A DNA stretch of 39,547 bases, taken from NCBI GenBank assembly GCA_938009735.1, contig CALLIG010000091.1, forward strand, positions 1-39,547, written 5' to 3'. The translations under genes were made by a program, and so were the position numbers. The first letter of the stretch is position 1; every line of letters starts with the position of its first letter. This DNA comes from an uncultured Flavobacteriaceae bacterium. GTDB lineage: Bacteria; Bacteroidota; Bacteroidia; Flavobacteriales; Flavobacteriaceae. This document shows, piece by piece, positions 18,870 to 31,200 of this stretch. The notes below the pieces were generated by a model that did not search any database, had not been told where the DNA came from, and saw only the letters and a program-made list of their open reading frames with translations.

Positions 18870-21314
18870 ATGAAAGTCTTAAAATTCGGAGGCACTTCTG
18901 TTGCCAACGCTACTAATATTACACTTGTAAAAGAAATCGTATCAAACGAAAGTTCCAATAAAACCATAGTTGTTGTTTCTGCTTTCGGTGGCATAACCGA
19001 TGTTCTGTTACAAACGGCGCAATTGGCGTCTAATCAAGATTCTGAATACAAGACTTCTTTGTCAGGTATTGAAAATAGGCACCTAGCAACAATCAAAGAA
19101 CTAATACCAATAAAAGCTCAAAGTAAAGTTTTAAGCAAAGTAAAGAGTGATTTAAATGCTCTGGAGACTTTACTGGAAGGTGCTTTTTTAATTGGAGAGA
19201 TCACGCCTCAGTTATCTGATAAAATTGTGAGCTATGGTGAAATGCTATCTTCTTATATTATCTGCGAATATTTTAAAGAACAAGGTTTAGATGCGATTCA
19301 AACAAACAGCAGAGATCTTATTAAAACTAATGATATCAACGGAAAGGCCGCAGTAAATTTTGAAACTACTTATAGCAATTGCGCGAAATATGTGAATTCG
19401 ACGTCAAATAAAATTATAGTCGCCCCAGGTTTTATTGCTTCTTCGGCCAACGGAAATCCAACAACACTAGGTCGTGGCGGATCAGATTATACAGCAGCTA
19501 TTTTTGCTGCTGCAATTGATGCACAGGTATTAGAAATTTGGACAGATGTTAGCGGTATGTATACTGCAAATCCTAAATTGGTAAAGCAAGCAAAAGCGAT
19601 TCCGCATATATCTTATGAAGAAGCAATGGAGCTTTCTCATTTTGGTGCTAAAGTTTTATATCCCCCAACTATACAACCAGTTCTTGCAAAAGGCATATCG
19701 ATAGTTATTAAGAATACTTTTAAACCTGAAGATGCTGGAACTTTAATTACTAAAAATAAAAATACTAAAGGCAAGACTGTTCGTGGTATCAGTCATATAG
19801 AAAACATTTCTCTTTTATCTTTAGAAGGGCCAGGAATGGTTGGCATACCTGGTATTTCAAAACGTTTCTTTGAAGTACTTTCACAATCAGAAATAAGCGT
19901 AGTTCTTATAACACAGGCCTCTTCAGAGCATTCAATATGTGTAGGTATTTCAGCAGATGATATTCATAAAGCAGTTATTATCGTTAATTCGGCTTTTGAA
20001 TATGAAATCGAAAGAGGGAAAATAAAACCCGTTATCGCTGAGAAAGATTTGGCAATTATCGCTCTTGTTGGTGACAATATGAAAAGTCATCAAGGCCTAA
20101 GCGGTAAAATGTTTAGTACGCTCGGCAAGAATAATGTTAATATTAGAGTCATTGCCCAAGGGGCCTCAGAACGTAATATTTCAGCCGTAATTAAGGCGGA
20201 AGATGTTAAGAAAGCTTTGAATGCATTACATGAGCAATTTTTCGAGGAGAATATCAAACAACTCAATCTATTTGTAATGGGTGTTGGAAATGTTGGTGCT
20301 AAGTTCTTAAATCAAATTGCTCAACAGAAGAAATACCTTAAAGAAAACTTGAAACTTAATATAAGAGTTGTTGGTTTATCAAACTCCCGAACCATGGTTT
20401 TTGATGAAGATGGAATTTCTCTAAAAAATTGGGAAGCTAATTTAGCTTCTGGCGAGAAAGCAAACAAAGAGCAGTTTTTTGAAAAAGTAAATCAACTTAA
20501 TTTCCGTAATAGCATCTTCGTTGACAATACAGCAAGTATGGAGGTTTCTGAAAGTTATAACGCTTATCTTAAGAATAGTATTTCTGTTGTTACTTGTAAT
20601 AAAATTGCTTGTTCTTCGAATTATTCAAATTATATAGAATTAAAAGAATTAGCGCGAACTTATAATGCTCCTTTTCTCTTTGAAACAAATGTAGGAGCTG
20701 GTTTACCGATAATAGACACTTTAAAACATCTGATTACTTCAGGAGATAAAATTTTAAAAATCCAAGCTGTTTTATCTGGCAGCTTGAACTTTGTATTCAA
20801 TAATTTTAATGACCAAACCACATTTCATGATGTGGTAAAACAGGCACAAGAAGAAGGCTATACTGAGCCAGACCCAAAAATAGATTTAAGCGGTGTTGAC
20901 GTTATGCGGAAGATTTTGATTCTCGCACGTGAAAGCGGAAACCAATTGGAAATTGAAGATATTCAAAATCAATCTTTCCTTCCACAAGAAAGTTTAGACA
21001 CCGATAATAATGAAGATTTCTTTGCTTCATTAGTTAAAAATGAAACCAGCTTTCAAAAACTATATACTGATGCAGTAAATGCGGAAAGCAAATTGAAATA
21101 TGTAGCGCAGTTCGAAGATGGGAATGCTAGTGTCGGTCTACAACAAATACCGAAAGGACATGATTTTTACAATCTTGAAGGAAGTGACAATATTGTTTTG
21201 TTCTTTACCGAGAGATACCCTAACCAACCTTTGATCATAAAAGGTGCAGGTGCAGGTGCTGATGTAACAGCTTCAGGTATATTCGCAGATATTATTCGAA
21301 TCGGAAATTTCTAA
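18870..21314 (+). CDS. thrA: Bifunctional aspartate kinase / homoserine dehydrogenase
   Basis: Catalyses the first and third steps from aspartate to threonine and methionine. The 814 residues comprise an N-terminal aspartokinase (KFGGTSVAN at the start, GRGGSDYTAAI near residue 204, about 1-290), two ACT regulatory segments (about 300-455), and a C-terminal homoserine dehydrogenase with the nucleotide-binding GVGNVGAKFLNQI near 470-483 and the FETNVGAGLPIIDTLK region near 600-620. Length matches enterobacterial ThrA. ACT domains imply feedback by threonine, and the Thr leader upstream adds a second layer. It is the first gene of thrABC, two bases from thrB. Confidence 0.97.
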   Translation: MKVLKFGGTSVANATNITLVKEIVSNESSNKTIVVVSAFGGITDVLLQTAQLASNQDSEYKTSLSGIENRHLATIKELIPIKAQSKVLSKVKSDLNALETLLEGAFLIGEITPQLSDKIVSYGEMLSSYIICEYFKEQGLDAIQTNSRDLIKTNDINGKAAVNFETTYSNCAKYVNSTSNKIIVAPGFIASSANGNPTTLGRGGSDYTAAIFAAAIDAQVLEIWTDVSGMYTANPKLVKQAKAIPHISYEEAMELSHFGAKVLYPPTIQPVLAKGISIVIKNTFKPEDAGTLITKNKNTKGKTVRGISHIENISLLSLEGPGMVGIPGISKRFFEVLSQSEISVVLITQASSEHSICVGISADDIHKAVIIVNSAFEYEIERGKIKPVIAEKDLAIIALVGDNMKSHQGLSGKMFSTLGKNNVNIRVIAQGASERNISAVIKAEDVKKALNALHEQFFEENIKQLNLFVMGVGNVGAKFLNQIAQQKKYLKENLKLNIRVVGLSNSRTMVFDEDGISLKNWEANLASGEKANKEQFFEKVNQLNFRNSIFVDNTASMEVSESYNAYLKNSISVVTCNKIACSSNYSNYIELKELARTYNAPFLFETNVGAGLPIIDTLKHLITSGDKILKIQAVLSGSLNFVFNNFNDQTTFHDVVKQAQEEGYTEPDPKIDLSGVDVMRKILILARESGNQLEIEDIQNQSFLPQESLDTDNNEDFFASLVKNETSFQKLYTDAVNAESKLKYVAQFEDGNASVGLQQIPKGHDFYNLEGSDNIVLFFTERYPNQPLIIKGAGAGADVTASGIFADIIRIGNF

Positions 21315-21316
21315 AC

Positions 21317-22237
21317 ATGGAAACAATCAAAGTCTTTTGCCCTGCAACTATAGCGAACATATCCTGCGGATTTGATGTTCTCGGGGTTGCTTTAGATTCC
21401 GTAGGTGATGAAATGGTGGTTCAAAAAACCTCGGTAAAAGGTATTCGAATTAGCAAACTCGAAGGCCAAGATCTACCCATGGAAACCTTGCAAAATGTTG
21501 CTGGTGTAGCCGGATTAGCATTATTAGAAGCAAGTGACTATCAAGGTGGTTTCGAAATTGAAATCTATAAAAAAATAAAAGCAGGTAGCGGAATTGGAAG
21601 TAGCGCAGCAAGTTCTACAGGTGCTGTCTGGGCTATGAATGAATTATTAGGAAAGCCTTTTTCTACATTAGAATTAGTAAAATTTTCTATGGAAGGTGAA
21701 CGCCTAGCAAGTGGCGTAGCGCACGCTGATAATGTTGCTCCTGCCCTATTTGGTGGTTTCACATTGGTTCGCAGCTATGATCCTTTAGATGTAGTAACCA
21801 TTCCGAGTCCGAATGAATTGTTTGCAACCGTAATTCATCCACAGATCGAAGTTAAAACCTCAGATTCTAGAAAAGTACTAAAAAACAACATCTCTTTGGC
21901 CGATGGAATTAAGCAATGGGGAAATGTTGGCGGCCTAGTTGCCGGGCTCTTCAAAGACGATTACGATTTAATAGGTCGCTCATTAGAAGATCATATTATT
22001 GAGCCAATTCGATCGATTTTAATTCCGGGTTTTGATGATGTCAAAGCAGCTGCAATAGAGGCTGGCGCTCTTGGATGCGGAATTTCAGGCTCCGGCCCTT
22101 CTATCTTTTCATTTAGCAAAGGTGGAGAAACTGCTCAAAACGTTGGGGAGGCAATGAAGCGTATCTATCAAGATATAGGAATAGACTTTGATATTCACAT
22201 CTCAAAAATTAATTCAGAAGGAATAAAGATGATGTGA
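21317..22237 (+). CDS. thrB: Homoserine kinase
   Basis: GHMP-family kinase making O-phosphohomoserine from homoserine. The 306 residues begin with VFCPATIANISCGFDVLG and contain the ATP-binding KAGSGIGSSAASSTGA loop near 90-105 and a C-terminal GCGISGSGPSIFSF motif near 253-266. The start is 2 bases after the thrA stop, so it is translated in concert. In other flavobacteria thrB is normally followed closely by thrC; here 483 bases containing a four-helix-bundle gene separate them. Confidence 0.97.
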   Translation: METIKVFCPATIANISCGFDVLGVALDSVGDEMVVQKTSVKGIRISKLEGQDLPMETLQNVAGVAGLALLEASDYQGGFEIEIYKKIKAGSGIGSSAASSTGAVWAMNELLGKPFSTLELVKFSMEGERLASGVAHADNVAPALFGGFTLVRSYDPLDVVTIPSPNELFATVIHPQIEVKTSDSRKVLKNNISLADGIKQWGNVGGLVAGLFKDDYDLIGRSLEDHIIEPIRSILIPGFDDVKAAAIEAGALGCGISGSGPSIFSFSKGGETAQNVGEAMKRIYQDIGIDFDIHISKINSEGIKMM

Positions 22238-22244
22238 AATTGGA

Positions 22245-22710
22245 CAGAAGACTGATGACGGAAGATGGAAGATGGATTGTTTGAATAATGTTACTAAAAC
22301 ATTAAAATTATGAACAAGTTTAAATTTGAAAAACTCCTTATTTGGCAAAAAGCAATGGACTTTGGTGAAATCATTAACCAATTAGCATTGGGTTTTCCAG
22401 ACAGGGAAAAATTCAATTTAGCGTCACAAATTAGTAGAGCATCAGATTCTATAGCATTGAATATTTCAGAAGGTTCAATCGGGCAATCAAATCCGGAACA
22501 GAAAAAATTCATAGGATACTCAATTCGATCGTTAGCAGAAGTTATAACTTGCCTATTTAAAGCCAAAAGAAGAAATTATATCAAGGAAGAGAAATTTACC
22601 GAACTATACAATGAAGCATACCATCTTATGAACATGATGAGTGCTTTTAGAAAAAACATAAAATAAAAACCTGGAATTCATCGGTCATCCGTCATCCATC
22701 ACCCGTCAAA
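22245..22710. mobile_element. Candidate four-helix-bundle cassette between thrB and thrC
   Basis: The left flank (22245-22279) is a purine-rich run of degenerate units (GATGACGGAAGATGGAAGAT); the right flank (22680-22708) is its pyrimidine-rich counterpart (TCATCCGTCATCCATCACCC). GATGACGGA at 22254-22262 is the exact reverse complement of TCCGTCATC at 22688-22696, so the flanks form a short imperfect inverted repeat around a single gene. The insert splits an otherwise contiguous operon. No transposase is present, so if mobile it would be non-autonomous. The boundaries given are approximate. Confidence 0.5.
22310..22666 (+). CDS. Four-helix-bundle protein (23S rRNA intervening-sequence protein family)
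   Basis: A 118-residue, all-helical protein. The family pattern is clear: FEKLLIWQKAMDFGE at the start, FPDREKFNLASQISRASDSI in the second helix, NISEGS, then YSIRSLAEVITCLFKAKR. Relatives are encoded in intervening sequences of bacterial 23S rRNA and as Avd accessory proteins of diversity-generating retroelements, but most free-standing copies in Bacteroidetes have no known function. There is no reverse transcriptase or variable repeat nearby, so an Avd role is not supported. It lies between thrB and thrC, inside the short inverted-repeat flanks described separately, and is likely carried along on the thr transcript. Confidence 0.9.
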   Translation: MNKFKFEKLLIWQKAMDFGEIINQLALGFPDREKFNLASQISRASDSIALNISEGSIGQSNPEQKKFIGYSIRSLAEVITCLFKAKRRNYIKEEKFTELYNEAYHLMNMMSAFRKNIK

Positions 22711-22720
22711 TTTTACGTTA

Positions 22721-24016
22721 ATGAAATTCTACAGCCTAAATAAACAAGCACCTGAAGTATCTTTTAAAGATGCAGTTATTAAAGGAATTGCACCAGATCG
22801 TGGCTTGTACTTTCCTGAAAGTATCACGCCACTACCCGATTCATTTTTCAAGGGTATTGAAAATCTTTCTAATCAAGAAATCGCATTTAATGCCATTCAT
22901 CAGTTTGTTGGTGATGAGATACCGAATGAGAAACTACGAGAGATTTTAGCAATTGTTTTAGACTTTGATTTCCCTGTTGTTGAAATCGAAGAAAATATTG
23001 CTACTCTAGAATTATTTCACGGCCCTACTATGGCTTTTAAAGATGTAGGCGCTCGTTTTATGGCCAATTGCTTAGGGTATTTCTCTGAAAACACTACAAA
23101 TGAGGTTACAGTTTTGGTTGCAACCTCTGGAGATACTGGAGGCGCCGTAGCAAACGGATTTTTAGGTGTTGACGGAGTTAAAGTTGTTATTCTATACCCT
23201 AATGGTAAAGTAAGTGATATTCAAGAGCGTCAACTTACCACCTTAGGTCAAAACATTACTGCTTTAGAAGTAGACGGTACTTTTGATGACTGTCAGAAAA
23301 TGGTAAAGACTGCTTTCTTAGATGAAGCACTTTTAAGTAAAATGCAATTGACTTCAGCGAATTCGATAAATGTTGCGCGATGGTTACCACAGTTATTTTA
23401 TTTCTTATTCGCCTACAAACAAGCTAAATCGCAAGGAAAAGAAATCGTTTTCTCTATTCCTAGTGGTAATTTTGGTAATGTTTGTGCTGGTATGGTAGCT
23501 CAGAAACTTGGAATGCCTGTAAAGCATTTCATTGCAGCTACGAATGTAAATGATACCGTGCCTGAGTTTATGAATACTGGTGTTTATAATCCTAAACCAT
23601 CTATAGCTACTATTTCAAACGCAATGGATGTTGGTGATCCGAGTAATTTTATTCGCATTCGTCATTTGTTTGATGACAATTTGGAAAAACTAAAACAAAA
23701 CCTTTCTTCTTTTACCTTTTCAGATGAGGAAACTAAAGAAGCAATGAAATCGATTTACAGAGATTCTAAATACGTCGCAGACCCACATGGCGCAATTGGA
23801 TACTTAGGATTGAAAAAACATCAAATATCTAATCCTGACACCTACGGCATCTTTTTAGAAACGGCACATCCTGTGAAATTTTTAGATGTCGTTGAAGAAA
23901 CCATTCCAGAGACTATTTCGATTCCTGAACAGATTAAAAAAGTGATGGATAAAGAGAAGAAATCCATACCAACTAAAAGCTATGACGATTTAAAAGCGTT
24001 TTTATTGCATCGATAA
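22721..24016 (+). CDS. thrC: Threonine synthase
   Basis: PLP enzyme converting O-phosphohomoserine to threonine, the last step of the pathway. The 431 residues include the PLP lysine in TMAFKDVGARF near residue 102-112, the phosphate-binding VATSGDTGGAVANGF near 131-145 and SIPSGNFGNVCAG near 245-257. It starts MKFYSLNKQAPEVSFKDAV, the usual N-terminus. It follows the four-helix-bundle cassette by 54 bases, which lie in that cassette's right flank. Cotranscription with thrAB depends on read-through of the cassette; I see no terminator in it. Confidence 0.97.
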   Translation: MKFYSLNKQAPEVSFKDAVIKGIAPDRGLYFPESITPLPDSFFKGIENLSNQEIAFNAIHQFVGDEIPNEKLREILAIVLDFDFPVVEIEENIATLELFHGPTMAFKDVGARFMANCLGYFSENTTNEVTVLVATSGDTGGAVANGFLGVDGVKVVILYPNGKVSDIQERQLTTLGQNITALEVDGTFDDCQKMVKTAFLDEALLSKMQLTSANSINVARWLPQLFYFLFAYKQAKSQGKEIVFSIPSGNFGNVCAGMVAQKLGMPVKHFIAATNVNDTVPEFMNTGVYNPKPSIATISNAMDVGDPSNFIRIRHLFDDNLEKLKQNLSSFTFSDEETKEAMKSIYRDSKYVADPHGAIGYLGLKKHQISNPDTYGIFLETAHPVKFLDVVEETIPETISIPEQIKKVMDKEKKSIPTKSYDDLKAFLLHR

Positions 24017-24105
24017 TTCTCTAAATAAAATAGTTTAGAAAACAATCAGTTCTCTTTTTTGGTCCTGTAATTATTCAATAGCTTTGCTATATAAACAATA
24101 GCAAA

Positions 24106-25194
24106 ATGAAAAACACCGCTTTAAGTGCAACCCATGAAGCTTTAGGTGCCAAAATGGTTCCTTTCGCAGGATACAATATGCCAGTTTCTTATGAAGGCGT
24201 GAATGCAGAACATGAAACAATACGAAAAGGTGTTGGTGTTTTTGATGTTTCCCATATGGGAGAGTTCTTAATTGGAGGTCCTAATGCTTTGTCCCTAATT
24301 CAGAAAGTCACTTCTAACGACGCTAGTAAATTAACTGTCGGAAAAGCGCAGTATAGCTGCTTACCTAATGAAACAGGTGGTATTGTTGATGACCTGATCG
24401 TTTATAAAATCAAAGAAGAACAGTATCTTTTGGTTGTAAATGCTTCTAATATAGAGAAGGACTGGAATCATATTTCGAAATACAATGATGAATTCAACGC
24501 TGATATGCGCGATATTTCAGAAGGATATTCTCTTTTAGCTATACAAGGCCCTAAAGCAGTTGAAGCGATGCAAAGTTTGACTTCTGTGGATTTGGCTGCA
24601 ATAAAATTCTATCATTTTGAGGTTGCCGATTTTGCAGGCATTGATAATGTTATTATTTCTGCAACTGGATATACCGGTTCTGGCGGATTTGAAATCTATT
24701 GTAAAAACGAAGAAGTAAATCAAGTTTGGGATAAAGTCTTTGAAGCCGGAGCAGATTTCGGCATCAAACCAGTTGGATTAGCCGCCAGAGATACTTTACG
24801 CTTAGAAATGGGGTATTGTTTATATGGAAACGATATTAGCGATACAACCTCTCCTTTTGAAGCTGGCTTAGGATGGATAACAAAGTTTACGAAAGATTTT
24901 GTGAATTCAGAAGCCTTATCTACGATCAAAGCTCATGGTCCTGAACGAAAACTAATCGCTTTTGAATTAGACGAACGCGGAATTCCAAGACATGATTATG
25001 ATATTGTAGATTCACAAGGAAAGAAAATCGGCATCGTAACTTCGGGTACCATGTCTCCCTCAATGGGTAAAGGTATTGGTCTTGGTTATGTACCAACAAT
25101 TTTTTCTACAGTAGGAAGTAAAATTTTGATTCAGATTCGTAAAAATGCTGTGCCAGCGACCGTTGTCAAGCTCCCTTTTTACAAAACCCAATGA
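24106..25194 (+). CDS. gcvT: Aminomethyltransferase, glycine cleavage system T protein
   Basis: Moves the methylene group from the aminomethyl-lipoyl H protein to tetrahydrofolate, releasing ammonia. At 362 residues it has normal length, with N-terminal MVPFAGYNMPVSYEGV, DVSHMGEF near residue 48-55 and GYTGSGGFEIYC in the folate-binding core. It lies 89 bases after thrC, so is probably a separate unit, and overlaps the glutaminase gene by 4 bases (ATGA). The gcvH and gcvP genes are not in the window. No glycine riboswitch is recognisable upstream. Confidence 0.95.
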   Translation: MKNTALSATHEALGAKMVPFAGYNMPVSYEGVNAEHETIRKGVGVFDVSHMGEFLIGGPNALSLIQKVTSNDASKLTVGKAQYSCLPNETGGIVDDLIVYKIKEEQYLLVVNASNIEKDWNHISKYNDEFNADMRDISEGYSLLAIQGPKAVEAMQSLTSVDLAAIKFYHFEVADFAGIDNVIISATGYTGSGGFEIYCKNEEVNQVWDKVFEAGADFGIKPVGLAARDTLRLEMGYCLYGNDISDTTSPFEAGLGWITKFTKDFVNSEALSTIKAHGPERKLIAFELDERGIPRHDYDIVDSQGKKIGIVTSGTMSPSMGKGIGLGYVPTIFSTVGSKILIQIRKNAVPATVVKLPFYKTQ

Positions 25195-26105
25195 TAGATT
25201 ACCAAAAAATTATTGATGGTATACACGTTACTTGTTCTCAGGCTTCAGAACGAGGAAAAGTAGCTGCATACATTCCTGAATTGGCTAAGGTAGATGCACA
25301 AAAATTTGGAATATTCTTAGTAGATCATAACAAAAAAGGATACTCCTCGGGTGATTGGTCAGAACGATTTTCTATACAAAGTATCTCTAAGGTACTTAGT
25401 CTAACAAAGGCAATTAATATAATTGGACCCGCAATATGGGAACGGATTAATGTGGAACCATCGGGAGACCCCTTCAACCATTTATCATTGCTTGAAGCTG
25501 AAAACGGAATTCCTAGAAATCCATTAATAAATCCTGGTGCAATTGTAGTCGCTGATATTTTAGTAACTCATCTTAAAAACCCGAAAGAAGATTTTTTAGC
25601 ATTTGTTAGAGAATTAGTAGACGATCAAAGTATTGACTTTGATAAAAGTGTCGCTCAATCGGAAAAAACAACTGGCTATAGAAATTATGCAACTGCTAAT
25701 CTTTTAAAGTCATACGGCAATTTAGAAAATGATGTAGAAACAGTTCTTGATTTTTACTTTCATCAATGTTCTATTGCAATGAACTGTGAACAACTTACTC
25801 AAGCTTTTTACATTTTTATGAATCGCGGAAAATGCCAAAGAGATAATACCTTCTTGACCTTAACTCAGGTTAAAAGAATAAATGCTTTGATGCTAACTTG
25901 TGGCTTTTATGATGAAGCTGGTGAATTTGCTTTTGAAGTTGGACTTCCAGGTAAAAGTGGCGTTGGTGGAGGGATTACTGCCTTGCTACCAAATCAGTTT
26001 TGCGTAGCTACTTGGTCTCCCGGTCTCAATAAAAAAGGAAATTCAAAATTAGGAATGGAAGCTTTGGAACGTCTAACGACTGAAGCTGAACAATCAATAT
26101 TCTAG
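25191..26105 (+). CDS. glsA: Glutaminase A
   Basis: Hydrolyses glutamine to glutamate and ammonia. The 304 residues fit the serine-dependent glutaminase family: the catalytic S-x-x-K in FSIQSISKVLSL near residue 63-70, NPLINPGAIVV near 103-113, and a C-terminal GKSGVGGGITALLP. It starts within the gcvT stop codon (ATGA overlap), implying translational coupling. The link to glycine cleavage is through ammonia or glutamate handling only by inference. Confidence 0.94.
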   Translation: MIDYQKIIDGIHVTCSQASERGKVAAYIPELAKVDAQKFGIFLVDHNKKGYSSGDWSERFSIQSISKVLSLTKAINIIGPAIWERINVEPSGDPFNHLSLLEAENGIPRNPLINPGAIVVADILVTHLKNPKEDFLAFVRELVDDQSIDFDKSVAQSEKTTGYRNYATANLLKSYGNLENDVETVLDFYFHQCSIAMNCEQLTQAFYIFMNRGKCQRDNTFLTLTQVKRINALMLTCGFYDEAGEFAFEVGLPGKSGVGGGITALLPNQFCVATWSPGLNKKGNSKLGMEALERLTTEAEQSIF

Positions 26106-26108
26106 CTT

Positions 26109-26930
26109 TTGGAACGAAAAAAAATACTTATTCTAGGCGGAAGTGGTTTTATCGGAAATGCCATTTATAAGGAGCTCTGCAAATATTTTGACACTTATGG
26201 CACCTATTTTTCTGCCCGAAAATCTTTTGAAAGTAACAAGCAGTTTTTTAAATATGACCTGCAAGAAGATGACATCTTCGATATTCTTGAGAAAGTAAAG
26301 CCCGATTTTATAATATCTGCCTTGCGGGGAAACTTTGCAGCACAAGTTCAGGCGCATCAGCATATCACAGAATACATTTCAAAAATTAATTGCAAGCTCT
26401 ATTTTATTTCTTCTGCAAATGTATTTGATGCCTACAGCAAATATCCATCTTATGAAAATGACAAAACACTCTCAGAAAGTGTTTATGGTCGCTTGAAAAT
26501 TAAGATTGAGAATATGTTACTTCGGCTTCCTAAAAACAAAATGGCCATTTTACGAGTACCTATGGTATTTGGTAATGGGTCACCTAGAATAAAGGAAATT
26601 AAGAAATTTATTCTTGAGAATGAACCCATTGAAGTCTTTCCTAATTTGGTGTTGAATGTAACTAATGACGATAAGCTAACGCAACAAATTCATTATCTAA
26701 TTAATCGAAATAAAAGTGGCGTTTATCATTTGGGTAGTCAAGACCTTGTTCATCACGAAGATTTCACCAAAGAAGTTATTGATCGTATTGGAACTTTTAA
26801 CCCAATTTATAAAAGGGTTTTTACAACTAATGAAGAACGATATTTAGCTGTATTACCAAAGGATAACAGATTACCTAAAAACCTTCAATTTGGTTATCAA
26901 GATATTATAGATCATCATGTTTTAATTTGA
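26109..26930 (+). CDS. NAD-dependent sugar epimerase/reductase-like SDR protein
   Basis: A 273-residue extended SDR, probably RmlD/epimerase-like. The nucleotide-binding GGSGFIGNAIYKEL is at residues 9-22 and the catalytic YxxxK is in VYGRLKIKIENML near 129-141, with FISSANVFD ahead. The start is TTG at 26109, three bases after the glsA stop; the next ATG (26159) would destroy the Rossmann motif, so TTG is required. Substrate is not predictable; dTDP-4-dehydrorhamnose-type reductases are the closest general class. It is downstream of gcvT-glsA in one apparent transcript. Confidence 0.85.
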   Translation: MERKKILILGGSGFIGNAIYKELCKYFDTYGTYFSARKSFESNKQFFKYDLQEDDIFDILEKVKPDFIISALRGNFAAQVQAHQHITEYISKINCKLYFISSANVFDAYSKYPSYENDKTLSESVYGRLKIKIENMLLRLPKNKMAILRVPMVFGNGSPRIKEIKKFILENEPIEVFPNLVLNVTNDDKLTQQIHYLINRNKSGVYHLGSQDLVHHEDFTKEVIDRIGTFNPIYKRVFTTNEERYLAVLPKDNRLPKNLQFGYQDIIDHHVLI

Positions 26931-27004
26931 TTACTTTTAGAATATTAATTTGAAGAAAACTAAAAATTTCCGCCTCATCGGAAATGACAATAAAACTATT
27001 AAAA

Positions 27005-27289
27005 ATGGAAAAATTATCAGACCAGCAAATACATGAATATTTAGGGAAATTAGACGGATGGGAATTTGTTGAAGGTGCTATTGAAACTTCATTTGAGTTT
27101 GACAATTTCAAAGAAGCATTTGCAACCATGACCCGAATCGCCTTTGAATGCGAAGCACAAGACCATCACCCTGATTGGAGTAACGTCTACAAAAATTTAC
27201 ATATTCGTTTGAATACGCATGATGCAGGTGGCGTAACTGAAAAAGATTTCAAGCTAGCCCATACGATTGAAGAGATTATTGAAGGGTAA
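27005..27289 (+). CDS. phhB: 4a-hydroxytetrahydrobiopterin dehydratase (pterin-4a-carbinolamine dehydratase)
   Basis: A small pterin enzyme that dehydrates 4a-hydroxy-tetrahydropterin during aromatic amino-acid hydroxylase turnover. The family pattern is visible: FEFDNFKEAFATMTRIAFECEA... then the active-site HHPDWSNVY and the THDAGGVTEKDFKLA end. The start at 27005 (MEKLSDQQIHEYL) gives 94 residues, in family range; an in-frame upstream ATG at 26984 would add MTIKLLK, which is not family-like. No hydroxylase gene is seen alongside. It sits 74 bases after the SDR gene and just before the heptamer repeat. Confidence 0.92.
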   Translation: MEKLSDQQIHEYLGKLDGWEFVEGAIETSFEFDNFKEAFATMTRIAFECEAQDHHPDWSNVYKNLHIRLNTHDAGGVTEKDFKLAHTIEEIIEG

Positions 27290-27296
27290 AATAAGA

Positions 27297-27366
27297 AGTT
27301 AGCAGTTAGCAGTTAGCAGTTAGCAGTTAGCAGTTAGCAGTTAGCAGTTAGCAGTTAGCAGTTAGC
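27297..27366. repeat. Tandem repeat, ten perfect copies of AGTTAGC
   Basis: Seventy bases (27297-27366) are ten exact copies of the heptamer AGTTAGC, starting 8 bases after the pterin dehydratase stop and 94 bases before the YebC-family gene. There is no ORF in it. Perfect identity of all copies suggests recent slippage, so copy number is likely to vary between strains. Confidence 0.98.
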
Positions 27367-27460
27367 AAAATTGAAAATTTAACGAGGAATAAATTTCTCA
27401 TTTGTGCTTGCGATTGATTTTATTAAATTTGCTTTAGCGCATATAAAATAACAATATACT

Positions 27461-28171
27461 ATGGGAAGAGCTTTTGAATTTCGAAAGGCTAGAAAAATGA
27501 AACGATGGTCAGCCATGTCTAAGGCCTTTACACGTATTGGCAAAGACATTGTTATGGCTGTAAAAGAAGGAGGCCCAGACCCTGATTCGAATTCTAAGCT
27601 TCGTGCAGTTATTCAGAATGGAAAGTCTGTCAACATGCCCAAAGACAATATTGAGCGTGCTATAAAGCGTGCTAGTGATAAAAACTTAGGTGATTTCAAG
27701 GAAATTTTATTTGAAGGTTACGCACCTCATGGCATTGCTATATTGGTAGAAACCGCGACAGATAACAATACACGAACCGTAGCAAATGTGAGAAGTTATT
27801 TCAATAAGTGCAACGGAAACCTAGGTACTTCAGGTTCTGTTGAATTTATGTTCGACCATACTTGTAATTTTAGAATTCCTGCAGAAGGTATTGACCCTGA
27901 AGAGCTAGAATTAGAAATGATTGATTTTGGTGCAGAAGAGGTTTTTGTTGATGACGATGGTATTTTAATTTATGCGCCCTTTGAAAGTTTTGGGGCTATT
28001 CAAAAGGAATTAGAAACTCGTCAACTCGAGATTCTATCTTCTGGTTTTGAACGCATTCCTCAAGTGACCAAGCAACTCTCTGAAGAAGAAGCTGCTGATG
28101 TAGAAAAGCTTCTAGAAAAGATTGAAGAAGATGATGATGTACAGAATGTATATCATACCATGCAAGAATAA
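27461..28171 (+). CDS. YebC/PmpR-family protein (TACO1-like)
   Basis: A 236-residue cytoplasmic protein with the typical start MGRAFEFRKARKMKRWSAM, GKSVNMPKDNIERAIKRA near residue 50-67 and GTSGSVEFMFDH near 120-131. Members were described as DNA-binding regulators; recent work in the family points to relief of ribosome stalling on proline-rich stretches. Which applies here cannot be decided from sequence. The gene is downstream of the heptamer repeat and ends at a convergent terminator. The presence of F at position 5 (FEFRKA rather than HKW) marks a Bacteroidetes subgroup variant. Confidence 0.93.
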   Translation: MGRAFEFRKARKMKRWSAMSKAFTRIGKDIVMAVKEGGPDPDSNSKLRAVIQNGKSVNMPKDNIERAIKRASDKNLGDFKEILFEGYAPHGIAILVETATDNNTRTVANVRSYFNKCNGNLGTSGSVEFMFDHTCNFRIPAEGIDPEELELEMIDFGAEEVFVDDDGILIYAPFESFGAIQKELETRQLEILSSGFERIPQVTKQLSEEEAADVEKLLEKIEEDDDVQNVYHTMQE

Positions 28172-28228
28172 AATTAGAGGCAAGACCGCTGCGCTGCAAG
28201 AACAAAGAGAAAAAATGAAATAAAAAAA

Positions 28229-28255
28229 GCGACCTGAAATTCAGGTCGCGTTTTT
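28229..28255. terminator. Bidirectional terminator between convergent genes
   Basis: GCGACCTGAA (28229-28238) pairs with TTCAGGTCGC (28240-28249), flanked by seven A on the left and five T (28251-28255) on the right. It serves the YebC-family gene and, on the minus strand, the large T9SS cargo gene that ends at 28273. Confidence 0.9.
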
Positions 28256-28272
28256 AACACGTGAGACTTACA

Positions 28273-31200
28273 TTATTGTTTTTTAATGAGCATTTGCCCA
28301 CTATGAGCACTCCCTTTTATATCTATGGCTTTAATGAAGTAATTACCAGATTGTAATGACTTGACATCAAGATTATATATTTCGCCTTGTCTCGTTTTTT
28401 CGCCCTTAAAGGTTCGTACTAGTCGACCATGCGTATCATAAATTACTATGCTCATTAGTTCAACAGGAGTATCAAAACTTAGATTAGCTCTAATATTCGA
28501 AGGGTTTGGAGAAATAATCAAGCTATTTACACTTTTTCCATCTCGTTCGGTATCCACAATTTCGAAATTAATGGTCAAGGAAGTTCCCATTTCACCATTC
28601 ATTCTATCTAGAGAATATGGTACAGCAGTTACCGCGTAGGTACCAAGAACAAAATCGCTGCCTTTATAATTTCCTATTGGTAAATCTTGAAATAATGCAT
28701 AAGGAACCAGGCTCTCTGTTCGCTCAGTTGTGATGGCACCAGCTAATGATAATCTTACACTTTCTACATCATCAGTAGTAATAGCGCGAATATCTAAATG
28801 AACTGTTGGCAAATCATTAATATAGATCATCATTCCTTCTTCAATTAAAAATAAATCTTCATTGGTATCTGCATTTACTAACATAAACGCTGTTACTGAC
28901 AAATTTGGATCAACCAATTCAAAATTGATATCAAACGGATTCCCTAATTCACCTTTAGCACTATCTAAAGAATACGGTACTCCGGTAACCGTATACGCTC
29001 CTACAACAAAATCATTTCCTTTGTAATCACCAATAGGTAAATCTTGAAACAACGCATACGGAATTAAACTCTCCGTTCGCGAGGAAGTCTGTGCGCCTGA
29101 TAATGATAATCGAACACTCTCTACCGAAGCTGACGTATTTGCACGAATATCTAATCTTAATGTTGGTAGGCTATTAATATCTATGACCATTCCCTCTTCA
29201 AGATCAAATAAATCTTCGTTAGTCTCCGCATTAACAAGTGTATAGCTTTCAACAGCTAATACTTCTGCTGATGTTACTTCTATTTCACCGGTTGCAGAAT
29301 TCTCACAACCTGTCAATTCATCAATGTAGGTATAGGTGATTTCATAAATGCCTTTTCCAACGGATGGATTAAATTCTCCGTCTTCAACTCCCTCCCCGCT
29401 ATAACTCCCACCAAATGGTTGCCCTTCAAAAAGTACGATGGACTCGTCGGTATCTAAAACTGGATCAAATGGAAGCATTGTAACTTCAGGAAGCTCAGGA
29501 TCACTCATACTAAATATCAACACAGCAGAACAATTATTAGCATCAATTGCCGTAACTGTATAATTGCCAGCTGACAATTCAGAAGCCATATCACTATTTA
29601 ATTGTTCATCATGACTCCAAACAAAGTTTATTGGGGCTACTCCCCCATTGGTCGCAACAATTGCAGCGCCGTCTGTACCTGTACAGGTCAAAATATCTGT
29701 AATAACATCTAATACAATTTCAAAATCTTGACAACTATCAGTTAAACTAAAGTTGATAGTAAACGGATTACCAATATATCCTCTTAGACTATCATCAGAA
29801 TACGGAATTGCTGTGGCCATATAATCTCCTATTACAAAATCACTTCCTTTATAATCTCCGATAGGTAAATCTTGAAACATAGCATACGGGAGTAGACTTT
29901 CTGTTCTTGAATTACTTAAGGCTCCGGCTATAGAAAGTCGCACACTTTCAACATCTTCGGTGGTATTTGCTCTAATATCTAAATGCATAGTCGGTAACGA
30001 ATTGATATCAATTTGCATACCTTCATCTATGGTAAATAAATCTTCATTGGTATCAGCATTTATTAAAGTAAAACTGAGTACTTCAAAATCGTTGATCTCA
30101 ATAGGATTAACAATTATGGTCTCTGCAATGACTGTAGTATTTACACCATCACTCACTTGATATATCACAGTAAAAGGTCCGCCTTCTTGCGAGGTATCAA
30201 CTAATTCATCGTCTGTAATATCTGTAGTTGTAATACTTTCATCAACTATGTTTGTTACTAAGCCCACAAAGTAGGTATCGCCAACTTCTAATTCTGTTGT
30301 GAAATCTGATGTATTTCCATTTACTTCAAAAGTAGGAGCTGTTACATCTTCTTCTATTTGTACGTCTACAATCCATTCTTGAGTTGTGCCGTCTTGAGCC
30401 GTCACAATATAAGCTTGAGTTGTACTAAAATCAACAGGTATACCAATTCCAGCGACAGCTGTTGCATAAGTTGATATTTCAAATTCAGGTATTAAAGCGG
30501 TAACATCTGTACCAATGGGCACTACTAATTGAATTGTGTTATTTTCTTGATCAATTTCTGTTTCTCCTATTTGACCATCGATAACAAATGATGTGATTTC
30601 ATTTTCTTCAGAAGGAACAAAACTAACCGTAACGGTTTGTGTGCATTCTGCCATATTCCCTGAGCTATCAACAGCCACCCAAGTAATAATCGTTTCTCCT
30701 ACAGGGTATAATGCATCTAATTCTTCTCCATCCATTCGAACACCACTTAAGGACACATCGGTATCACAAAGATCAGAAGCAGTTGCACTACTAAATTCGG
30801 CCATTACTGAATCGCCATCTAAACTTATTGCTTCTATGTTTTCAGGACAATTAACAATAGGATTAGTTTCATCAACAATTATAATTACTTGCAAGCAAGG
30901 TTCTGAAGTGTTTCCTGCTTCATCAATTGCCGTCCAAGAAATGGTTGTTTCTCCTAAGGGAAAAGGAAAAAACAAATCTAATCCGTCACTACGCTCTCCG
31001 TTTAAGGTTAATTGACCATCACTATTATCAGTTGCTTCAGGTAATTCTACTGAAAAACTAGCATCACAACTTTCTGAATCTGTGGGCATTGTAAAACCTT
31101 CAGGGCATATAATTATAGGTTTTTCGGTATCTTCTAGGCCAGCTTGCACTCCTGGAGAACCAATATCAGCGCCTGAATTATCATGAAGTTCTATACTTAC

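Follow-up and report, generated by a model that had tools for sequence, protein, structure and literature searches.

The closest described counterpart of the locus analysed here is the intervening sequence (IVS) in the 23S rRNA of Coxiella burnetii, an element of 428 nt with tandem GACAGAT heptamers on its 5' side, terminal inverted repeats and a sense open reading frame (ORF) of the IVP family (PMC4990558). According to that paper, it is not clear where rRNA intervening sequences come from, and a relationship between the IVP family (PF05635) and the Avd proteins of DGRs is stated in PMC10053308. Genes of this family, annotated as IVP, 'S23 ribosomal' or 'four helix bundle' genes, are found in many genomes without a known function. 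They form one of two puzzles that are possibly linked, the other being the heptamer microsatellites of cyanobacteria, where such heptanucleotide repeats are called STRRs, and of Xanthomonas. Repeats of the GGGNATC type in Xanthomonas and Nostoc are mostly intergenic, and GGGAATC arrays are abundant in Xanthomonas, where arrays mostly consist of 4 units and form 70 convergent inverted pairs in X. campestris (PMC4692102). The solved IVP structure 2gsc likewise comes from X. campestris. Against a common cause of the known heptamers and the element described below stand the few inverted heptamer pairs of Nostoc 7120 and, in the available text of PMC4692102, the lack of a general link to known mobile elements, as well as the TAACTGA arrays of Beggiatoaceae, almost all of which are direct, with one inverted repeat among 170 sets (PMC4679880). 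Neither S23 nor four helix turned up in a term search of the available text of these two papers, and the literature covered, which included few subscription-journal papers or bioRxiv preprints, yielded no description of IVP genes tied to inverted heptad arms, the Coxiella heptamers aside.

The window analysed here is a stretch of 39,547 nt (contig C91) from an uncultured Flavobacteriaceae bacterium, whose draft genome comprises 3.99 Mb in 390 contigs and is about 85% complete. The ORF list and a profile search agree on an intact 118-codon IVP gene (22310..22666, + strand) located between thrB and thrC. Its upstream operon neighbour thrB encodes homoserine kinase (21317..22237, + strand; NF002288, 399 bits; TIGR00191, 229 bits) and its downstream operon neighbour thrC encodes threonine synthase (22721..24016, + strand; TIGR00260, 287 bits). 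The predicted protein of 118 aa matches PF05635 (23S_rRNA_IVP) with 104.2 bits at a curated cut-off of 33.8 and TIGR02436 ('four helix bundle protein') with 99.9 bits at a cut-off of 24, which bears out the initial annotation of this ORF as an IVS-type four-helix-bundle gene inside a biosynthetic operon. The left arm (22243..22276, + strand) is a lag-7 array of about five degenerate heptads of the AAGACTG, ATGACGG and AAGATGG types and constitutes the left half of an inverted repeat; the right arm (22678..22716, - strand) consists of heptads of this type in inverted orientation, the minus strand reading TTGACGG, GTGATGG, ATGACGG and ATGACCG, with the lag-7 array proper at 22678-22708. The longest inverted repeat around the gene has 39-nt arms (22234-22272 and 22678-22716) that are 72% complementary and 405 nt apart. 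An exact inverted pair that had been claimed for these flanks is indeed present, and can be read directly from the sequence as GATGACGGA (22254-22262) and TCCGTCATC (22688-22696). With up to 3 mismatches GATGACGGAAGATGG has three matches in the window, all of them within the two flanks of the IVP gene, where 0.49 were expected, and this count was reached by none of 100 shuffles of the window; a lag-7 scan found three arrays, namely both IVP flanks and one solo array, compared with 0, 1, 0, 0, 0 and 0 arrays at lags of 5, 6, 8, 9, 10 and 11. The repeat content of the IVP flanks is thus above chance. The earlier description of the flanks as degenerate short units was correct as far as the arrays are concerned, but it missed the 7-nt unit, the frequent occurrence of the layout among IVP genes and the difference in heptads between copies.

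Terminal inverted repeats and heptamers enclosing a sense IVP ORF are thus found at the thr locus as in the Coxiella-type rRNA IVS, which indicates that the rRNA element and the free-standing cassettes share their anatomy. The differences are that the thr copy resides in a protein-coding operon and not in 23S rRNA (an Rfam search of 21200-28300 gave no match), that the free-standing ORF is under purifying selection whereas the ORF of the rRNA IVS is decaying, and that the heptad of free-standing copies varies by copy while being matched on both arms. The element is best explained as a relative of the rRNA intervening sequence that stands by itself, and the 23S rRNA intervening sequences of the Coxiella type would then represent an rRNA-inserted branch of the same element. 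It resembles IS elements and MITEs in being a short unit whose ends are inverted, in occurring at several loci and in having gene-less derivatives. It differs from these in that its ends are copy-specific tandem heptads instead of a family-wide terminal repeat and in that no transposase was found in the cassette by profiles; between the arms of the thr copy, IVP was the sole match and neither a transposase nor a recombinase was detected among the ORFs profiled, a set to which the only other ORF of at least 90 aa (22294-22566, antisense to the IVP gene) did not belong. On balance, and with slightly better than even confidence, we favour the reading that the thr copy represents an element which is widespread and apparently undescribed, and whose IVP ring reads its own heptads.

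This arrangement is frequent among IVP genes. We examined 182 full-length copies, of which 109 came from the own and related genomes (after removal of 7 partial copies from 116) and 73 from a named set of loci from many phyla (80 loci, 4 left out because of short flanks, leaving 76 usable, and 3 further ones dropped for short ORFs). A strong lag-7 array was present on both sides of 88 copies and on either side of 143, compared with 1 and 52, respectively, of 535 control genes, which were calls in stretches of two genomes (G020 and G000) with the IVP genes left in; in 94 copies a strong array is missing from one side or from both. A lag-7 score of at least 8 was reached by 116 left and 115 right flanks, but by only 4 of 178 control stretches. 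Among the 109 relatives' copies, the self-match of the flanks at lag 7 was 0.418 on the left and 0.413 on the right, with further signals at lags 14 and 21 and a mild shoulder at lag 8, compared with 0.257 at lag 7 and no periodic signal in control stretches 400 nt off the IVP copies. The match between left and right arm exceeded the 95th percentile of cross-copy comparisons in 80 of these 109 copies and did not do so in 29; this refers to wider windows, the narrower 110-nt flanks of our first analysis having placed 70 of 109 above the threshold. In the named set the threshold was exceeded by 23 of 32 further Bacteroidota loci, under which Ignavibacteriales were counted, and by 34 of 44 loci from other phyla, a group drawn up from record titles that includes one unassigned bacterium; the labels of above-threshold loci include Acidobacteria, Planctomycetota, Patescibacteria, Nitrospirae, Clostridia and Deltaproteobacteria.

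Heptad consensus and polarity were determined for the 88 copies scoring at least 8. Consensus heptads differed at 1.51 of 7 positions within a copy and at 3.40 between copies, and up to rotation there were 82 distinct heptads in these 88 copies. The element is an IVP gene between two arrays in opposite orientation, each typically with 4-5 units of 7 nt, and its heptad varies from copy to copy yet is common to both arms of one copy. The median array size is 31 nt. Arrays of 4-5 units account for 72 of 116 on the left and 57 of 115 on the right, and some extend far beyond 35 nt. In copies with an arm score of at least 15 and a clear upstream ORF (n = 79), the left arm starts at a median of 2 nt past the upstream stop codon, and within 15 nt of it in 59. 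The inward-reading strand contains more G than C in 76 of 86 left arms (two ties left out) and in 81 of 88 right arms, and this common polarity of a G-rich strand hints at single-strand recognition.

The IVP protein of Xanthomonas is described as a homopentamer (PMC4990558). An IVP ring of identical subunits probably reads the arms, each subunit recognising one heptad. Such a ring would account for a fixed period with a word that is free as long as it is repeated, for the likeness of the units of one array and for the shared word at both ends; in the case of a pentamer, it would also explain the median array of 31 nt (5 x 7 = 35). IVP would then be the end-recognition, and possibly the mobilisation, protein of a minimal element riding on the transcription of host operons. 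If this is true, the ends of the element are free to take almost any seven-letter word, provided that both arms share it, and IVP could be a naturally retargetable repeat-reading ring; in any case, the arm-matched, copy-specific heptads provide a testable hypothesis for what the IVP protein recognises. A more far-reaching proposal, which we consider tentative and rather doubtful, is that IVP represents a new sort of mobility protein, that the cassette belongs to a novel class of mobile elements, that the unexplained over-representation of heptamers is largely due to arms or their relics, and that the rRNA IVS is one branch of this class.

Arms that face each other in a transcribed region could also act as RNA. 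They might pair in the operon mRNA, where RNase III would cut the stem and excise the IVP segment as in 23S rRNA, and they would be kept for RNA pairing and not for DNA recognition. We regard this as a possible, though not a probable, alternative. The predicted RNA fold of the thr copy pairs both arms, and IVP genes are usually in sense orientation in operons: both neighbours were co-directional with IVP in 100 of 116 copies, compared with a baseline of 56% under crude ORF calling, a bias that also speaks for the favoured reading. Moreover, the Coxiella rRNA IVS with its heptamers has a 28-bp terminal stem and is excised by RNase III in vitro (PMC4990558), and a gene-less hairpin in Chryseobacterium (L305, see below) has new matching arms and a strong fold. 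However, differences between arms of the G-U type are fewer than those of the A-C type (115 versus 174, a comparison confounded by the A-rich sense strand), and arm changes can be unit-wide, as in L134 with AGTGGTC on the left and mostly AGTGTTC on the right. In addition, RNA of the window is only 1.84 sd more stable than shuffled sequences, 2 of 100 of which fold equally well.

The predicted structure of the IVP protein (AlphaFold2, pLDDT 95.5) comprises four helices, and its best Foldseek match is 2gsc (2gsc_B, TM 0.91); this four-helix bundle is shared with 2gsc and 2rld and also with DGR Avd (4dwl_D, TM 0.79; 8ub7, TM 0.75-0.77). The likeness to Avd speaks for a reading in which a reverse transcriptase or, alternatively, a Y1/RAYT transposase moves the cassette in trans, and an activity in trans had also been suspected in the initial annotation. 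We consider this very improbable and found little support for it. The window's contig contains no reverse transcriptase, in which it differs from a DGR, the only RVT_1 match of the genome being located on contig C222. Across the relatives, in which IVP is present in 64 of 98 genomes with 0 to 16 matches each, the number of IVP copies tracks Y1_Tnp weakly (partial r 0.27, p 0.008) but not RVT_1 (partial r -0.07). Among the 64 IVP-positive genomes, some of which are incomplete, RVT_1 is absent in 43, Y1_Tnp in 31 and both families in 22.

If gene and arms relocate as one unit, as the favoured reading of a self-recognising element would have it, heptads should be expected to travel with the protein. 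In 110 copies with both arms scoring at least 7, pairs in non-matching gene contexts had a heptad cosine of 0.308 at a protein identity of at least 60% (n = 61) and of 0.042 below 45% identity (n = 4682); the largest value among 2000 label shuffles was 0.097, and the mean was still 0.223 for the 48 pairs left after exclusion of the fad-operon groups. Two pairs of copies at different loci show DNA homology that covers the gene and extends into arm sequence on either side (L096/L082, -63..+36 in L096; L131/L139, -25..+69 in L131) and that stops in the arms or no more than about 20 nt from them. Most between-locus DNA alignments in the thr subfamily stop at the ORF end or slightly inside, and hence the arms there are too diverged to align. 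In three genomes (L191, L202 and L209), one subfamily is found in three different slots of what aligns as a single operon. Since similar IVP proteins at different loci have similar heptads, gene and arms look like one relocatable cassette; that they form a unit which relocates is what we infer from these comparisons of sequences, although no transposition event was observed and the correlation between heptad and protein above 60% identity could also reflect mere co-inheritance. The operon with the three slots looks by eye like a fatty-acid operon. A contig labelled Limnohabitans from a MAG (L229) carries a cassette and an operon near those of Flavobacterium (L191, 77% DNA identity), which is due to either transfer or a binning error.

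It had also been proposed that the flanks are a repeat common across the host genome, and a search for further copies had been put forward as its test. This proposal failed: a search of the genome (~85% complete) for the flank motif with up to 2 mismatches gave 7 matches, compared with 1 for a reversed control, and while two overlapping matches at the thr locus are within an array (lag-7 score 17), the other five are not (scores 3-4). A mobile repeat family or REP spread over the genome was therefore rejected as an identity of the flanks, the heptad occurring in array context at the thr locus only. The broader idea of a cassette with its own flanks survives, because each of the other full-length IVP copies in this genome is flanked left and right by heptads of its own. 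Seven IVP matches occur in the genome, one of them with a stop codon, and all 6 full-length copies, including that at the thr locus, are above the cross-copy threshold for matching arms.

The thrB-thrC junctions of the genus agree with the suggestion that a small cassette is seated between genes without breaking them, as junctions with and without the gene occur. In 12 readable junctions from 14 genomes (G003, at a contig end, and G009 were left out), the gene is intact in three, a pseudogene in one and missing in eight. The comparison of junctions in close relatives, for which the initial annotation had asked, showed that in five of the eight gene-less junctions thrB and thrC nearly abut, 5-11 nt past the last aligned thrB residue with the stop codon included, which leaves no space for arms, and no array is present. 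Compared for a target site duplication, gene-less junctions offer only these 5-11 nt, which differ between species. At the same time the IVP proteins at this locus are 82-86% identical, a divergence similar to that of thrB and thrC (82-87%), so that the thr copy looks mainly vertically inherited. Gene-bearing and gene-less genomes alternate on the genus tree, whose supports are weak (0.07-0.87). The divergence of the IVP proteins suggests that the gene has long resided at the thr locus and been lost repeatedly, or that alleles were exchanged, rather than recent jumps. An apparent IVP remnant seen by eye in the thr junction of G011 was dropped (E 1.8).

Vertical inheritance at this locus raises the question of whether IVP is a host regulatory gene whose arms are its own operator sites, without any mobility. 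The divergence equal to that of the neighbours is what such a gene would show, and so is purifying selection, under which the IVP gene is according to its codon sequences: dN/dS was 0.044-0.060 for the three intact thr copies (at a dS of 1.4-2.8, near saturation), and its median was 0.089 when 27 intact copies were compared in 316 pairs; these came from a set of genomes whose genus was inferred to be Chryseobacterium, where stop codons were found in 2 of 29 copies and IVP has been present at one locus in the long term. Purifying selection speaks for the favoured reading as well. Nevertheless, we consider a purely regulatory role unlikely, given the patchy presence of IVP in the relatives' genomes, its location in three slots of one operon in three genomes and its repeated loss.

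Among the matches listed, 29 of 98 Chryseobacterium genomes align across the whole cassette. Of the remaining 69 genomes, for which no alignment over the full length was listed, we read 20 gene-less junctions; the right arm is kept in 15 and the left arm in 12, the latter count being inflated by stop-codon bases in the query. The retained arms indicate decay and not clean excision. No IVP remnants were found in these 20 junctions by a protein-level search; in two genomes (G110 and G177) DNA alignments reach into the 3' end of the IVP gene. The idea that the gene-less Chryseobacterium junctions are virgin empty sites was rejected, as most of the 20 retain an arm. One of the genomes (G117) contains a strongly folding gene-less hairpin (L305), both arms of which read GGGATTA, unlike the heptad of its relatives, as though one arm had been adjusted to the other despite the absence of the gene.

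Heptad arrays also occur apart from IVP genes. The third array of the window is a solo array of ten AGTTAGC units (27297..27367, + strand; TRF: 100% matches, score 142), a related array type with no adjoining IVP gene, located 4.6 kb downstream between a pterin-4a-carbinolamine dehydratase gene and yebC; at the same spot, other members of the genus have eight units of AGTTAGG, three to about six of AGTTGGC, or almost nothing. A lag-7 scan of 400 kb of a related genome (G020) found five strong arrays, one run of N having been removed from the list, compared with 0 or 1 at lags of 5, 6, 8, 9, 10 and 11. None of the five is within 7 kb of the three IVP ORFs in these 400 kb, which argues against a one-to-one link between array and gene. 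The same genome contains a gene-less inverted heptad array of the GAGATTT/ACTCAAT type (L318, 14828-14890), with the nearest IVP ORF at 7 kb. Solo arrays may be relics as in Chryseobacterium, or they may be an independent repeat. The arms of the cassette could themselves be pre-existing heptamer microsatellites or insertion targets in or beside which IVP genes land, and both the solo array of the window and the five arrays of G020 off IVP genes would fit this, as would the over-representation of heptamer arrays in several bacteria (PMC4692102). We nevertheless judge this explanation quite unlikely, as the gene-less thr junctions of five genomes have no array, heptads track the protein to other loci, and the arms, which point towards each other, share a polarity.

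Some known bacterial heptamer repeats may in turn be explained by the IVP element. The two share units of 7 nt, a mostly intergenic location and, in Xanthomonas, inverted pairs (PMC4692102), and they differ in that the arrays described here frame IVP genes. This also applies to cyanobacterial plasmids: in the 11 copies analysed out of 31 plasmid matches, a lag-7 array was present on at least one side in 10 and on both sides in 6, with units of the TAGGGAG, CAGGGAA and TCAGGAG types. The arm match is above the 95th percentile of cross-copy comparisons in 6 of the 11, the heptads being alike among these copies, and in one copy (L333) the surroundings of the IVP gene are free of lag-7 arrays. On two of the plasmids (L332, 1201-1560; L335, 1189-1557), the IVP gene is located between cas6 and cas4, and the legend of a figure on CRISPR association in PMC10910872 names a '23S rRNA IVP'. 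An IVP gene next to cas genes may be a passenger, and the arm-matched heptads caution against taking IVP genes for functional partners of such neighbours. Three IVP cassettes (L008, L100 and L103) share related TTGACAG/TTGTCGG heptads, and the first of these is, as read by eye, located between what appear to be two separately encoded portions of methionine synthase.
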